Program-made: the position numbers and the translations under genes
Shown here: positions 13,940 through 19,319 of the stretch, in pieces
Numbering within the stretch: the stretch's first letter is position 1
Layout: each line of letters opens with the position of its first letter
The notes under the pieces: generated by a model
Told to the model about the DNA's origin: nothing
Database searches by the model: none
The model's input: only the letters and a program-made list of their open reading frames with translations
Origin: Actinomadura formosensis NBRC 14204
Lineage (GTDB): Bacteria > Actinomycetota > Actinomycetes > Streptosporangiales > Streptosporangiaceae
Assembly (NCBI RefSeq): GCF_001552155.1
Contig: NZ_BCQQ01000024.1
Coordinates: 1 to 64,000, forward strand
DNA: 64,000 nt
Reading direction: 5' to 3'

Positions 13940-15613
13940 TCAGGCGTTCTTCCACTCCTCGCCCTCGTACTCGACCAGGCGCGGGTGGACGAGGGTGTTG
14001 ACCTCCACGTCCCGGCCACGGCGGTCCTTGGGAAAAACCGTCGACGCCTGCAGGACCGCACTGTCAAGGAAGCGAAGCCCAGTGAGGTCGGGTGCGAGCT
14101 TGAGCGCGGGGGGTTCCTTGGTAGGGGACGCCAGGACGAACCCCCAGTCACCGAAGCTCGGCACGTCCACGTGGTACGGGGTGGTCGCGAGACCGGCGGC
14201 GGCTATCGACTTCTGGATGCTCCAGAACGACTTGGGCGCGAAGTACGGCGAACCCGACTGGACGACCATCCGCCCGCCCGGCGCCAAGGCCCGCTTCACC
14301 ATCCCGTAGAACTCGACCGAGTACAGCTTGGCCGTGGCCACGTCATCGGGGTCGGGCATGTCCACGATGATCGCGTCGTACTGCTCGTTCAGGCCGCGCA
14401 GCCAGGAGAACGCGTCAGCGGTGACGGTCTCCACGCGCGGATCCTCGAAGGAGCGGTGGTTGAGGGACGCGATCGGCCCGTAGGTGCGGGCCAGGCGCAG
14501 CATTTCCGGGTCCAGTTCGACCAGCGTCGCGCTCCGGACGTCCTTGTAGCGCAGCACCTCGCGCAGCGCCAGCCCGTCCCCGCCGCCGAGAACGAGCACC
14601 CGGCCGTGCGGCCCGGACATCAGCGGATGAACGAGCGACTCGTGGTACCGGTACTCGTCCACCGAGGAGAACTGGAGATCGCCGTTCAGGAAGAGCCGCA
14701 GGTCCGGCGGGCCGAGCCCGGCCTGCCGGGTGATGACGATCTCCTGGTACCTCGTGCGCTCCGCCACCGCGATCGGGTCGCTGTAGAGCGCCTGCCGCGC
14801 CGACACCTCGAACCCGTCCGCCAGCGCGTAGACACCGCCGAGCACGGCGAGGACGGCCACCATGCCGAGCGCCAGCGCGGCCCGCGCGACCCGGCCGAGT
14901 TCGCGGCGGAACAGCCACAGCACCACCGCGACCCCGGCGACCGCGTTCACCACGCCGACCAGCAGCGCGCCCTTGATGTGCCCGAACGCCGGCAGCAGCA
15001 GGAACGGGAACGCCAGCCCGCCGACCAGCGCGCCCACGTAGTCGGCGGCGAACAGGTCGGCGACCGCCGACCCCGCGTCCTGCCTGCGGATCCGCTGCAG
15101 CAGCGTCATCAGCAGCGGGATCTCCGCGCCGATCAGCGCGCCGACCGCGAACGCCACCACCACCAGCGCCGGGACGTACAGGTCGAGCCACGCGAACGCC
15201 GCGTACAGCGCCAGCACGGAGACGCCGCCGACCAGCGCGAGCGCGCCCTCCACGACCGCGAACGCGACGATCGCGCGGCCCTGCAGCGGCTTCGCGGCCA
15301 GCGACCCGACGCCCATCGCGAACACCATCACCGACAGCACGATCGACGCCTGCGTGACGGAGTTGCCGACCAGGTAGCTGCCCAGCGCGACCAGCGCCAG
15401 CTCGTACACCAGCCCGCACGCCGCGCACGTGAACACGGCCGCGAGGATCAGGGTGCGCGCGAACCGTACCGGGACGCGCGGCCTTCCCGGCCCGTCCGCC
15501 CGGGACGGTTCCGGGTCGGGCGGCCGGACGGCCCGGTCCAGATCGCGGGTCGTCAGGAGACCGCCCCGGCCACGATCGCGGCGACGCCCAGGTCGGCGGC
15601 GGCGACGACCCAC
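13940..15613 (-). CDS. Membrane-anchored spermidine-synthase-like protein
   Basis: 557 residues. Seven or eight hydrophobic segments in residues ~50-270 are followed by a soluble aminopropyltransferase/Rossmann domain. That domain contains VLVLGGGDGLALREVLRYKDV, ATLVELDPEMLRLAR, a DAFSWLR block and DAIIVDMPDPDD. The motifs match polyamine synthases, but the membrane half suggests action at the inner membrane. The only strong start is GTG 15613, inside the end of the upstream DUF350 gene (61-bp overlap); a CTG start closer to 15550 cannot be excluded. It is the last gene of the DUF4178-DUF2617-DUF4247-DUF350 cluster. Confidence 0.83.
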   Translation of the reverse strand: MGRRRRRPGRRRDRGRGGLLTTRDLDRAVRPPDPEPSRADGPGRPRVPVRFARTLILAAVFTCAACGLVYELALVALGSYLVGNSVTQASIVLSVMVFAMGVGSLAAKPLQGRAIVAFAVVEGALALVGGVSVLALYAAFAWLDLYVPALVVVAFAVGALIGAEIPLLMTLLQRIRRQDAGSAVADLFAADYVGALVGGLAFPFLLLPAFGHIKGALLVGVVNAVAGVAVVLWLFRRELGRVARAALALGMVAVLAVLGGVYALADGFEVSARQALYSDPIAVAERTRYQEIVITRQAGLGPPDLRLFLNGDLQFSSVDEYRYHESLVHPLMSGPHGRVLVLGGGDGLALREVLRYKDVRSATLVELDPEMLRLARTYGPIASLNHRSFEDPRVETVTADAFSWLRGLNEQYDAIIVDMPDPDDVATAKLYSVEFYGMVKRALAPGGRMVVQSGSPYFAPKSFWSIQKSIAAAGLATTPYHVDVPSFGDWGFVLASPTKEPPALKLAPDLTGLRFLDSAVLQASTVFPKDRRGRDVEVNTLVHPRLVEYEGEEWKNA

Positions 15614-15993
15614 CCGGCCGGGTGGATGGCGGTGCCGCCGCCGTCCACGTCGACGAGCGTCGCGCCGAGCCTGCCCGGCGTGATCACGTCCAGCAGGAAG
15701 AACGAGACGACCATCAGCACGATGCCGATCGCGCCGAACACGGCGGTGTCGACCAGGCCGGCGCCCAGGTCGTTGTCACTGGTGACGATCGCGGTCGTGA
15801 CGATCATGCCGATGCCGAAGAGCTTGACCGCGAGCAGCAGCGCCGCGCCGCGGTTGCCCTCGGTCCAGATCTGCTTGCCGAGCCTGCCCGGCGTCGTCAC
15901 CTCCACCACCAGGTAGCCGAGCGCCATCAGCGCGATCCCGACCGCCCCGTAGGCGAAGGTCGCGCCGATCTCCCGAAGGATGTCGTCGTTCAT
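15553..15993 (-). CDS. DUF350 family membrane protein
   Basis: 146 residues from ATG 15993 with GGAGCGGC upstream. Four hydrophobic helices form two similar halves, each with a small-residue helix leading into a TPGRLG turn (VEVTTPGRLGKQI and LDVITPGRLGATL). This duplicated pattern is characteristic of DUF350 (YjfL-like). Its biochemical role is unknown. In other bacteria DUF350 genes travel with PspA-like proteins and ATP-grasp or polyamine enzymes, and here it precedes the SpeE-like gene. Confidence 0.85.
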   Translation of the reverse strand: MNDDILREIGATFAYGAVGIALMALGYLVVEVTTPGRLGKQIWTEGNRGAALLLAVKLFGIGMIVTTAIVTSDNDLGAGLVDTAVFGAIGIVLMVVSFFLLDVITPGRLGATLVDVDGGGTAIHPAGWVVAAADLGVAAIVAGAVS

Positions 15994-16003
15994 GTGCCGC
16001 TCC

Positions 16004-16438
16004 TCATTTGCCCGACCCTGGGCCGCCGCCCCGGAACGACGCGGCGCCTCTGCTGTTCCATCCGTGGCTTCCGGGGCTCGCCCAGCGCCCGCCGACATGG
16101 GAGTAGTAGCGGCCGTAGCCGCTGCGGGGATTGTCGACCGTGATCCGGCTGCCCGCGCCGTCCGGCAGCACGCCGACGACGAGATTGGGGTAGCGCATGA
16201 AGATGCCGCCCGCCGCGCCCATCGCCGCCATGTCGTCCACGCGGTCGATCGGCTTGAACTTGCGGCCGATCTCCGAGGCCACCGTGTACGGAGCCTTCGG
16301 GGAGCGGTAGGTGCCCGCCCCCGCCCGGGAGTACTTGTCGGCGATCCACGACGACTCCGACTGGCCGCAGCCGCCGAGCGCCGCGGTGGTCACGGCGGCG
16401 GCGAGCACCGCGCCCGCCACCCGGTATCTGCTGTTCAC
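16004..16438 (-). CDS. DUF4247 family lipoprotein
   Basis: 144 residues. A lipoprotein signal peptide ends in the lipobox ALGGC near residue 24. The mature part includes YRSPKAPYTVASEIGRKFKP, VDDMAAMGAAGGIFMRYP and a Gly/Ser-rich C-terminus. This matches the DUF4247 family as I recall it. The start overlaps the DUF2617 stop by four bases, and the DUF350 gene begins 10 bp after its stop. It is probably exported and membrane-tethered as part of this envelope cluster. Confidence 0.78.
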   Translation of the reverse strand: MNSRYRVAGAVLAAAVTTAALGGCGQSESSWIADKYSRAGAGTYRSPKAPYTVASEIGRKFKPIDRVDDMAAMGAAGGIFMRYPNLVVGVLPDGAGSRITVDNPRSGYGRYYSHVGGRWASPGSHGWNSRGAASFRGGGPGSGK

Positions 16439-16935
16439 GATGGTCTCACCAGCCGGCTCCGTGTCATCACGATCTCCCGGGTCTGCGGGTAGGCGTGCCA
16501 GGTCCGCCAGCCGAATCCCGGCTCCCGCGTCTCTTCCAGTGCCAGTGCGGTGACGGCGTGCGGCGAACCGGGGAACGCCCCGGTCAGCGCGTCACCGCGG
16601 TCCGCGAGCCGCGCGCACACGGCCTCGACGGCACGGGCGAACGCCGTCCCGTCACGGTGCGCGGCGGTCGTCGCGGTGAACTCGTAGGCCCAGCCGGGCA
16701 CGCTCGTCGCGGCATGTCCGGGCAGCGGCTCGGCGGCATCCGGCAGGCACGCCACCGTCTCGCTCAGCGGACCGGCGATGACCTGGTGGGACGCGCCGAG
16801 CAGGCGCAGCTCCACGGTCAGGCCGGCGCGCTCCACCGGCAGCACGGCGAGCGCGTCCAGCGGCGGCAGCCCGAGCGCGAACGAGAGCCCGTCGGCGCGC
16901 GCGTCCGCGTAGGGGGTGTCGAGGGTCGCGCGCAA
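16435..16935 (-). CDS. DUF2617 family protein
   Basis: 166 residues from TTG 16935. There is no signal peptide or membrane span, so it is likely cytosolic. It contains the ASHQVIAGPLSETVACLPDA and GWRTWHAYPQTREIVMTRS segments seen in DUF2617 proteins. It starts two bases after the DUF4178 stop and overlaps the next gene by four bases, so the cluster is one transcription unit. The function is unknown. Confidence 0.75.
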   Translation of the reverse strand: MRATLDTPYADARADGLSFALGLPPLDALAVLPVERAGLTVELRLLGASHQVIAGPLSETVACLPDAAEPLPGHAATSVPGWAYEFTATTAAHRDGTAFARAVEAVCARLADRGDALTGAFPGSPHAVTALALEETREPGFGWRTWHAYPQTREIVMTRSRLVRPS

Positions 16936-16937
16936 GG

Positions 16938-17564
16938 TCAGCTACCGCCACCCGGGTAGATCGTCATCGATCCGGCCGGGACGCGTTCGCCGAGGCCCGC
17001 CTCCCACGGGCCGCCGCCGTACTGCTCGAACGACAGGTACTTCCCGCGCGGGCCCTCGTAGTCGACGTACTCGACCCGGCCCTGGACGCCGACGCCCGTC
17101 GTGCCCTCGCTGGTGTAGTCGGCGGTGCCGTGCTCGTCGCGGCGGTACTCCACGCCGTCCACGACGATGGTCTTCTCACCGGGCGTGAGGTCCCCGGCGT
17201 CGTACTCCGTCCACCAGACGACCTCAAGGTCCGGGTCCTCCTCGACGGAGACCCACACCTTGGTGCCCTCGATGGTGTCGGCGTCGAGGAGATGCTCGCT
17301 CCAGGTGAAGCCGCCCTCCTTCAGCCGCAGCGAGCCGCGCACGAAGTAGCGGGTGCCGAGGTACTCGACCATGTCGCCGGCCTTCAGTGCCCGCGGGTCG
17401 CCGGCCACCTGGTCCTCGGGGGCGAACGGGTCGCGCGGGACCACCGGGGCGGGGGCCGCAGGAGCCGAACGGCGCCGCAGCAGGACGAGGATGAGCACGA
17501 TCAATGCGACCAGGATCAGCGCCAGCAGGATCACTATCGCCGTTCCGCCCACGGACACCTCCAT
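16938..17564 (-). CDS. DUF4178 family membrane-anchored protein
   Basis: 208 residues from ATG 17564. One N-terminal transmembrane helix (residues ~8-30) is followed by Arg residues and a Pro/Ala linker, then a DUF4178 domain. Recognisable pieces are GDMVEYLGTRYFVRGSLRL, WVSVEEDPDLEVVWW and YVDYEGPRGKYLSFEQYG. It is the first gene of the five-gene run ending in the SpeE-like protein. A TAGGAT hexamer (17595-17600 on the opposite strand) about 35 bp upstream could be its -10 element. Confidence 0.8.
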   Translation of the reverse strand: MEVSVGGTAIVILLALILVALIVLILVLLRRRSAPAAPAPVVPRDPFAPEDQVAGDPRALKAGDMVEYLGTRYFVRGSLRLKEGGFTWSEHLLDADTIEGTKVWVSVEEDPDLEVVWWTEYDAGDLTPGEKTIVVDGVEYRRDEHGTADYTSEGTTGVGVQGRVEYVDYEGPRGKYLSFEQYGGGPWEAGLGERVPAGSMTIYPGGGS

Positions 17565-17710: not shown

Positions 17711-18796
17711 TCAGAGGCGGTCGACGGCGGCGGCGACGCGCTCGTCCGTCGCGGTGAAGGCGATCCTGATGTGCCGGGCCCCGGCCGGGCCGTAGAACTC
17801 GCCGGGGGCGACGAGGATACCGAGGGACGCCAGGTGGGCGACGGTGTCCCAGCACGGCTCGTCTCCCGTGGCCCACAGGTACAGGGACGCCTCGGAGTGG
17901 TCCACGCGGAAGCCGTGCCCCTCGAACGCGGCGCGCAGCGCGGCGCGGCGGCGCGCGTACCGTGCGCGCTGCTCGTCCACGTGCGCGTCGTCGGCGAACG
18001 CCGCGGTCATCGCGGCCTGCACCGGCGCCGGGACGATCATGCCGGCGTGCTTGCGGACCTCCAGCAGCCGCTTGACCAGCGCGATGTCGCCGGTGACGAA
18101 CCCGGCGCGGTAGCCCGCCATGTTGGAGCGCTTGGAGAGGGAGTTGACGGCGAGCAGCCCCTCATGGGAGCCGTCGCACACGTCCGGGTGCAGGATCGAG
18201 ATCGGCGGATTCCCCTCGTCCCAGCCGAACTCCAGGTAGCACTCGTCGCTGACGACGAGCGCGCCCCGGCCGCGCGCCCACGCGACGACCTTGCGCAGAT
18301 GCTCGACCGGCAGCACCTTGCCGGTCGGGTTGGACGGCGAGTTCACCCAGACGATCTTCGGTTTGACCGGGCCGAGCGCGAGCAGCCCGTCGGTCGAGAC
18401 GGGGGTGGCCCCGGCCAGCCGCGCGCCCACGTCGTAGGTCGGGTAGGCCAGCGCGGGGAAGACGACCTTGTCGCCGGGGCCGGCGCCGAGCAGCGTCGGC
18501 AGCCAGGCGACCAGTTCCTTGGTGCCGATGACGGGCAGCACCGCGTCCGGGTCGGCGCCGGACACGCCGGCGCGGCGCCGCAGCCAGCCCGCGACCGACT
18601 CGCGCAACTCCGGCGTCCCGTACGTCTGCGGGTAGCCGGGCGCGTCGGCCGCGGCGGTGAGAGCCTCCCTGACCGGCTCGGGCGTCGGGTCGACGGGCGT
18701 CCCCACGGACAGGTCGACGATGCCGTCCGCGTGCGCCAGCGCCCGCTCCTTGTAGGGCGCGAGCCGATCCCACGGAAAGTCCGGCAACGTGAACAC
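17711..18796 (-). CDS. dapC: Succinyldiaminopimelate transaminase
   Basis: 361 residues from GTG 18796, preceded by GGAGGAACAAGGTC, rather than the track start at 18856. It is a class I/II aminotransferase. SPSNPTGKVLP and VVSDECYLEFGWDEG give the substrate and PLP contacts, and NSLSKRSNMAGYRAGF contains the PLP lysine. Length and the adjacent ferredoxin match the actinobacterial DapC-FdxA arrangement. DapC converts the succinyl-amino-ketopimelate to succinyl-diaminopimelate in lysine and peptidoglycan precursor synthesis. Confidence 0.87.
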   Translation of the reverse strand: MFTLPDFPWDRLAPYKERALAHADGIVDLSVGTPVDPTPEPVREALTAAADAPGYPQTYGTPELRESVAGWLRRRAGVSGADPDAVLPVIGTKELVAWLPTLLGAGPGDKVVFPALAYPTYDVGARLAGATPVSTDGLLALGPVKPKIVWVNSPSNPTGKVLPVEHLRKVVAWARGRGALVVSDECYLEFGWDEGNPPISILHPDVCDGSHEGLLAVNSLSKRSNMAGYRAGFVTGDIALVKRLLEVRKHAGMIVPAPVQAAMTAAFADDAHVDEQRARYARRRAALRAAFEGHGFRVDHSEASLYLWATGDEPCWDTVAHLASLGILVAPGEFYGPAGARHIRIAFTATDERVAAAVDRL

Positions 18797-18880
18797 GACC
18801 TTGTTCCTCCTCTGGAGACCCGGCGGGCCGCGGCCTTCCCGAAGCAGGGAGACCACGGCCCGGAAAGCGTGGGGCCCGGC

Positions 18881-19207
18881 TCAGTCGTCGTGGCTCTGCG
18901 GAGGGAGCGCGGCGACGATCGGGTGGTCCTTCTCGATCTTCCCCACCTTGGACGCGCCGCCCGGCGAGCCGAGGTCGTCGAAGAACTCCACGTTCACCTT
19001 GTAGAAGTCCTTCCACTGCTCGGGGACGTCGTCCTCGTAGTAGATGGCCTCGACCGGGCAGACCGGCTCGCACGCACCGCAGTCGACGCACTCGTCCGGG
19101 TGGATATAGAGCTGACGCTTCCCTTCGTAGATGCAGTCGACCGGGCACTCCTCGATGCATGCCTTGTCGAGCAGGTCCACGCAGGGCTGCGCAATGACGT
19201 AGGTCAC
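18881..19207 (-). CDS. fdxA: 7Fe ferredoxin
   Basis: 108 residues from GTG 19207 with GAGAGGAG upstream. Two clusters of cysteines are present. The first (CVDLLDKACIEECPVDCIY) gives a CxxxxCxxxxxxxCxxxCP arrangement typical of the 3Fe-4S site. The second (CVDCGACEPVCPVEAIYYEDD) is a classic CxxCxxCxxxCP motif. The C-terminal tail of about 50 residues matches actinobacterial FdxA. It is an electron carrier for oxidoreductases or cytochromes P450, lying 84 bp upstream of dapC on the same strand. Confidence 0.93.
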   Translation of the reverse strand: MTYVIAQPCVDLLDKACIEECPVDCIYEGKRQLYIHPDECVDCGACEPVCPVEAIYYEDDVPEQWKDFYKVNVEFFDDLGSPGGASKVGKIEKDHPIVAALPPQSHDD

Positions 19208-19319
19208 GTCAGTGACTCCTCTCGGATTTCCGGCCCCGCCGCACGTCACGGCTCACCGCAAGCTCGCTGTGAATAGTATTGCCATCACGGCTCGGTCGAT
19301 TCGACACGGGGGTCCTCAG

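Follow-up and report, generated by a model that had tools for sequence, protein, structure and literature searches.

DUF2617 as a candidate S-adenosylmethionine decarboxylase partnering a membrane-fused aminopropyltransferase in actinobacteria

Introduction

S-adenosylmethionine (SAM, or AdoMet) decarboxylase and spermidine synthase have been described as obligatory partners (PMC10407285). The locus analysed here raises the question of what could supply decarboxylated SAM (dcSAM) to a spermidine-synthase-like (SpeE-like) enzyme encoded in a genome where the usual decarboxylase, SpeD, is not found. It lies in a 64,000-nucleotide stretch of DNA from Actinomadura formosensis NBRC 14204 (contig NZ_BCQQ01000024.1, positions 1 to 64,000; hereafter the window), part of a 7.1 Mb genome that is 98.7% complete. 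Here a five-gene operon encodes a SpeE-like enzyme fused to transmembrane (TM) helices together with proteins of the DUF4178, DUF2617, DUF4247 and DUF350 families. We propose that the DUF2617 protein is probably a pyruvoyl-dependent AdoMet decarboxylase (AdoMetDC) that feeds the membrane aminopropyltransferase.

Organization of the operon

The five genes are, in order of transcription:

16938-17564, minus strand: DUF4178 protein, 208 amino acids (aa), N-terminal TM anchor (TM 1-37) followed by a beta-rich domain; PF13785, E 6.4e-38
16435-16935, minus strand: DUF2617 protein, 166 aa, TTG start; PF10936, E 2.6e-49; proposed pyruvoyl-type AdoMet decarboxylase in a class-2-like two-half form
16004-16438, minus strand: DUF4247 lipoprotein, 144 aa, lipobox ALGG/C24; PF14042, E 5.5e-13
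15553-15993, minus strand: DUF350 (YjfL family) small membrane protein, 146 aa, about four TM helices; PF03994, E 3.4e-24
13940-15613, minus strand: TM-fused spermidine-synthase-like aminopropyltransferase (hereafter SpeE), at most 557 aa, start uncertain; NF002956, E 5.9e-208

The original prediction described a tight cluster encoding a membrane-anchored domain, a cytosolic protein, a lipoprotein, a small membrane protein and a membrane-fused enzyme, separated by gaps of 2, -4, 10 and -61 bp. The strand, order and packing of the genes were confirmed and each protein matched its named family in Pfam or NF profiles. The protein types were likewise borne out by the single TM helix of DUF4178, the lipobox of DUF4247, the helices of DUF350, and the 7-8 TM helices that precede the catalytic half of SpeE. 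The first three gaps are as described; the start of DUF4247 overlaps the end of DUF2617 through GTGA, and a GAGGAG ribosome-binding motif is found upstream of the DUF350 ATG. The nominal 61-bp overlap between DUF350 and SpeE is not secure, because it depends on a GTG at 15613 that is the sole available start, with no further ATG or GTG ahead of the first TM helix, and homology begins only at about residue 49. Scanning the operon for promoters and terminators returned nothing. Genome-wide profile searching revealed a single copy of DUF350.

An aminopropyltransferase-family protein in a genome without SpeD

Judged from its sequence, the SpeE of the window is a clear member of the aminopropyltransferase family. 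It matches Spermine_synth (PF01564) with 126 bits against a cut-off of 22.9 (E 1e-36) and the TM-fused "polyamine aminopropyltransferase" model NF002956 with 691 bits against a cut-off of 472, and phmmer aligned it with the polyamine aminopropyltransferases 1uir/3anx at E 8e-36. No other protein in the genome matches PF01564. The residues expected of the active site fall within one segment:

14351-14647, minus strand: SpeE active-site segment with Y323-H324-E325, GGGD346G, E366, D368, D400 and D418-x-x-D421, kept in DUF2617-type and SpeD-type relatives

Both signatures of the spermidine synthase/aminopropyltransferase family, GGG(D/E)G and D-x-x-D, are present in this segment. Across 96 relatives the acids D346 (of GGGDG), D368, D400, D418 and D421 are 87-100% conserved; Y323, H324 and E325 are conserved too. 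An Asp in GGGDG favours dcSAM over SAM, as in spermidine synthase versus putrescine N-methyltransferase, and its retention therefore argues for dcSAM as the donor. A profile scan also returned weak methyltransferase-family matches, and some Streptomyces SpeEs from a reduced, two-gene form of the locus display active-site drift (D421, Q452). Both observations would suit a domain that acts as a SAM methyltransferase, or as an inactive sensor on an envelope-stress complex, with no involvement of polyamine chemistry. We regard this as highly improbable given that the GGGDG Asp, D418 and D421 are kept in nearly all members from five-gene loci, and that speD sits in the non-actinobacterial operons described below.

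Searching the A. formosensis genome for PF02675 (SpeD/AdoMet_dc) gave no match, and the same search was positive in eight control genomes. A search for PF01536 also gave no match, a result that is uninformative since no control matched either.

DUF2617 is the invariant partner of SpeE

Among 297 Actinomycetes genomes DUF2617 was found in 71 and TM-fused SpeE in 73, with both in 70 (Fisher 3e-63); SpeD was found in 12. Only one genome with DUF2617 (G505) falls below the threshold for TM-SpeE, and there a fragment of SpeE follows DUF2617 immediately downstream. In an overlapping sample of 296 genomes from the phylum, TM-SpeE was present in 16 of 16 genomes with DUF2617 over the cut-off and in only two others. 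At the level of gene order, DUF2617 and TM-SpeE are clustered, with DUF2617 upstream, in 79 of 80 loci anchored on DUF2617, the exception (L024) being a contig that stops before the SpeE position. Most Streptomyces carry a bare DUF2617-SpeE pair without detectable DUF350, DUF4178 or DUF4247 (these loci fall mostly within L042-L100). DUF2617, and not DUF350, is thus the invariant partner of SpeE; the two form the core of the operon, to which DUF350, DUF4178 and DUF4247 are accessory.

Some Streptomyces genomes (G128, G403, G443, G514 and G548) hold two copies each of DUF2617 and SpeE, which in G128 are arranged as one DUF2617-SpeE pair and one near-complete operon. Streptomyces speibonae (L068) has tandem SpeE-like matches (11476, 13115) following a DUF2617-DUF4247-DUF350 block. 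No DUF2617 was found in viral contigs or in plasmids.

The complete five-gene block recurs in approximately 20 Actinomadura/Actinoallomurus-type loci and in distant actinobacteria, and one locus, L023, carries the block yet has 0 of 6 tested flanking genes of the window. The clustering is therefore not due to chance. Flanking genes are kept only within Thermomonosporaceae and are wholly different in L023 and Streptomyces, which excludes bulk synteny. Upstream of the operon and on its strand, the window has DapC-type aminotransferase and ferredoxin genes (17711-19249), a flank conserved in Thermomonosporaceae.

The original prediction offered, as an attractive but unproven reading, a membrane-linked polyamine modification system, to be abandoned if the five genes did not co-occur in other genomes or if the SpeE-like acids were not conserved. 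Co-occurrence proved widespread and the acids are conserved, and on these two grounds a membrane-linked polyamine or aminopropyl system stands, so that the reading is partly supported. What the prediction missed is the absence of SpeD and the place of DUF2617 as invariant partner and probable source of dcSAM; it also missed that the operon type is already described in an earlier paper (PMC11237479).

SpeD takes the place of DUF2617

Only three of the 297 Actinomycetes genomes (G050, G235 and G361) contain TM-SpeE without DUF2617, and in each the remaining four operon genes are present and in order. SpeD is encoded in 3/3 of these genomes versus 5/70 that are DUF2617-positive (Fisher P 9e-4, a value that counts any SpeD, variants included, and that overstates independence because the species are related). 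In the SpeE tree the three genomes branch at two different places within the DUF2617 clade of actinobacteria, which points to two losses of DUF2617. In G235 (L117, 4831-6054) one 408-aa frame encodes SpeD and a Spermine_synth domain as a fusion; a DEAD-box helicase/DUF3516 gene lies nearby.

Beyond the actinobacteria, a Novosphingobium cluster has the order SPFH-DUF4178-DUF4178-hypothetical-DUF350-TM-SpeE-FAD (flavin adenine dinucleotide) oxidoreductase-speD. In Ensifer, Gemmatirosa and Burkholderia, SpeD (confirmed with Pfam) lies within a few kb of the homologous cluster; in Tritonibacter no SpeD was found within 16 kb. DUF2617 is absent from all five of these clusters. The proteobacterial and Gemmatimonadota versions have speD in the cluster in place of DUF2617.

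Motifs and predicted fold of DUF2617

The candidate catalytic residues of DUF2617 are grouped in two motifs, one in each half of the protein:

16747-16794, minus strand: N-half motif A48-S49-H50 ... E59 ... C63; predicted cleavage between A48 and S49, with S49 the predicted pyruvoyl serine and C63 the predicted catalytic Cys
16483-16551, minus strand: C-half motif T129 ... T145-W-H147-A-Y149-P150-Q151, aligned to SpeD S55 ... T66-I-H68-T-W70-P71-E72

D11, S49, H50, E59, C63, T129, T145, W146, H147, Y149 and P150 are invariant in 85 of 85 aligned sequences; within the C-half motif A148 and Q151 vary. Among 1207 open reading frames the combined motif was found only in DUF2617. In the AlphaFold2 model (predicted local distance difference test score, pLDDT, of 91) S49 immediately precedes strand 50-54, and C63 immediately follows the strand paired with it, 57-62. 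As a match of motif and position, this is consistent with the Ser-then-Cys arrangement across a beta hairpin in AdoMetDC, and S63 and C83 of T. maritima SpeD sit likewise around a strand pair. The spacing from S49 to C63 is 14 residues, and that from S68 to C82 of human AdoMetDC is the same. The processing-His signature, T-x-H-x-[WY]-P with a Ser/Thr on the preceding strand, is found as T145-W-H147-A-Y149-P150 and T129.

The C-half was modelled at pLDDT 95 as b-b-a-b4, with the b-a-b4 strand and helix order of the SpeD unit. Profile alignment with SpeD pairs TWHAYPQ with TIHTWPE at an hhalign score of 23.9, compared with maxima of 17.0 over 400 column shuffles and 20.6 over 35 real families, and with 10.8 for the reversed profile. 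A Foldseek search of 350,542 chains with the C-half returned potato AdoMetDC (1mhm) at rank 40 of the top 50 (prob 0.85, TM-score 0.46, E 0.2), with the lowest root-mean-square deviation and the third-highest TM-score among the 50 matches listed. In several Actinomadura (L027-L032) DUF2617 has a long variable insertion, reaching about 40 aa, in the stretch that separates strand 128-134 from strand 140-149, at the position of the cleavage loop of the SpeD unit.

Other searches were negative: hmmscan of DUF2617 returned PF10936 and a sub-cut-off RAMA match, with no match to PF02675; a PDB sequence search with the DUF2617 profile found nothing up to E 10; and comparison of the N-half with the C-half for an internal repeat was not significant. 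On their own, sequence and modelled fold make a weak case for DUF2617 as a relative of SpeD. Combined with the pattern of exchange with SpeD, they make an AdoMet decarboxylase the best single explanation of DUF2617.

DUF2617 might otherwise be a binding partner, chaperone or regulator of TM-SpeE that stands in for a CesT/Tir-PspA dyad, with dcSAM coming from an unrecognised enzyme or with SpeE using SAM or another donor. Ravi et al. have DUF4247 and DUF2617 replacing this dyad (PMC11237479), and the best full-length Foldseek match to DUF2617 by E-value was the chaperone SciW, though with a TM-score of 0.26. We consider a binding role rather unlikely, as it does not account for the restriction of DUF2617 loss to genomes with SpeD or for the occurrence of SpeD in the non-actinobacterial clusters. 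The invariant residues of DUF2617 listed above are, moreover, polar and of catalytic type (D11, S49, H50, E59, C63 and H147), with no hydrophobic binding face. Were SAM the donor, the dcSAM-favouring Asp kept in GGGD346G would also be unexpected.

Observations that weigh against a decarboxylase

Several observations count against assigning DUF2617 as an AdoMet decarboxylase. The losses of DUF2617 amount to only two independent events, and in the SpeD of G361 a Gln replaces the Glu before the cleavage serine. Five genomes encode both DUF2617 and SpeD, and the active-site drift in Streptomyces pair-type SpeEs belongs here as well. The hhalign probability for DUF2617 against SpeD reaches only 12-30%, and no significant alignment was obtained with the N-half by itself (GASH against ESH). 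Matches to the C-half in the Foldseek search include hotdog thioesterases and MAF1, and a search of a viral library with the same half returned generic small alpha/beta proteins and no named AdoMetDC; together with the E-value of 0.2 for 1mhm, these results mark the half-fold as generic. The full-length Foldseek search gave no AdoMetDC among the top 50 and no convincing fold. The SAM-binding glutamates of AdoMetDC lie at the end of strands 3 and 12 (PMC1282579). DUF2617 has A48 and Q151 at these positions, and its substrate could therefore differ. Outside the 85 aligned sequences, the DUF2617 of one locus (L196, G399) has Tyr in place of C63, like the Cys-to-Tyr variants of Streptomyces SpeD.

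The SpeDs of the five genomes with both proteins are themselves variant: the catalytic Cys is absent in G023, G193 and G532, and the processing His is replaced by Ser in G468 and G562. A general loss of function in these SpeDs was considered and rejected, since the variant SpeD gene of G023 adjoins that of a BpsA-type aminopropyltransferase. At this Streptomyces locus (L119, 4610-5026 and 5286-7289) the SpeD with Cys changed to Tyr (SASHLSIHTWPE...LLAYG) stands beside a BpsA_C branched-polyamine synthase gene. Some SpeDs in DUF2617-positive genomes may serve a neighbouring BpsA, as the neighbourhood seen for G023 suggests.

Proposed mechanism and significance

We envisage DUF2617 as a shrunken two-half enzyme resembling class 2 AdoMetDC of eukaryotes. 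Self-cleavage would occur between A48 and S49 and turn S49 into the pyruvoyl cofactor; C63 in the N-half would reprotonate, T129 and H147 in the C-half would act in processing, and the product would be dcSAM. From this dcSAM the membrane-fused SpeE would pass the aminopropyl group on to an acceptor at the inner (cytoplasmic) face of the membrane. DUF350, DUF4178 and the DUF4247 lipoprotein may serve as membrane accessories that locate, export or sense the product, and would be dispensable in the two-gene form of Streptomyces.

The acceptor is probably not simply putrescine. With all canonical aminopropyltransferase residues conserved, SpeE might be thought to make spermidine from putrescine in a plain spermidine synthase operon, the other genes encoding transporters or accessories. 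We find this improbable: an enzyme that is fused to 7-8 TM helices and encoded alongside a lipoprotein, DUF350 and DUF4178 is ill-suited to a cytosolic metabolite. Li et al. in 2019 also reportedly found that a fusion of a major facilitator superfamily (MFS) domain to spermidine synthase (SpdSyn) did not rescue a SpdSyn mutant and that no spermidine was present, which would favour another acceptor. In that work, on the proteobacterial form, the AdoMetDC was reportedly active.

On balance, we lean towards DUF2617 being a previously unrecognised SAM decarboxylase of bacteria and archaea. As a miniature pyruvoyl enzyme of two halves, it would have reached the class 2 arrangement separately and would provide the dcSAM for a membrane aminopropyltransferase in actinobacteria, M. 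tuberculosis included, that have been considered to lack a decarboxylase. Kozbial and Mushegian reported in 2005 that no SAM decarboxylase could be identified in M. tuberculosis, and in this species and in most of the sampled actinobacterial genomes with DUF2617 a SpeE-like enzyme is conserved but a recognised decarboxylase is lacking (PMC1282579 for M. tuberculosis). If our proposal is correct, an old gap would be closed, specific residues of the uncharacterised DUF2617 family would be tied to a catalytic activity, and these bacteria would make dcSAM for a reaction located at the membrane.

Comparison with known systems

In their 2024 paper, Ravi et al. describe YjfL(DUF350)/DUF4178/TM-SpeE operons, including a variant with DUF4247 and DUF2617, assign them no function, regard DUF2617 as a predicted enzyme with a beta-sandwich fold in which two histidines, one Asp and one Glu are conserved, and give CCP45394 (DUF2617) and CCP45395 (DUF4247) as examples from M. 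tuberculosis (PMC11237479). Our literature search found no function for DUF2617; the operon type is already published, and a specific, testable function for DUF2617 is the new point. We take the two M. tuberculosis proteins to be Rv2598 and Rv2599. Like the published operons, that of the window unites DUF350, DUF4178, a lipoprotein and TM-SpeE; the absence of SpeD and the SpeD/DUF2617 exchange are noted here and not in the available part of that account (PMC11237479).

DUF2617 resembles SpeD of class 1b (PF02675) in standing beside SpeE, in the b-a-b4 order of its C-half, and in its Ser-His...Cys and S/T...T-x-H-x-[WY]-P motifs. Unlike class 1b SpeD, it combines two halves of unequal size in a single chain, is not matched by PF02675 and lacks both substrate-binding glutamates. 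The eukaryotic enzyme carries the pyruvoyl Ser and the Cys in its N-half and the processing His in its C-half, which alone aligns directly to prokaryotic SpeD and has lost self-cleavage (PMC1282579). DUF2617 shares with this class 2 form (PF01536; human, potato) the division of Ser and Cys from His between the halves, a C-half without a cleavage Ser, and the 14-residue distance from Ser to Cys. In contrast to it, DUF2617 is about half the size, most of the outer helices are gone, and there is no significant sequence match. The SpeE of the window is a clear member of the TM-fused spermidine synthases (NF002956/PRK03612) and has the same domain content, but it is partnered by DUF2617 and not by SpeD.

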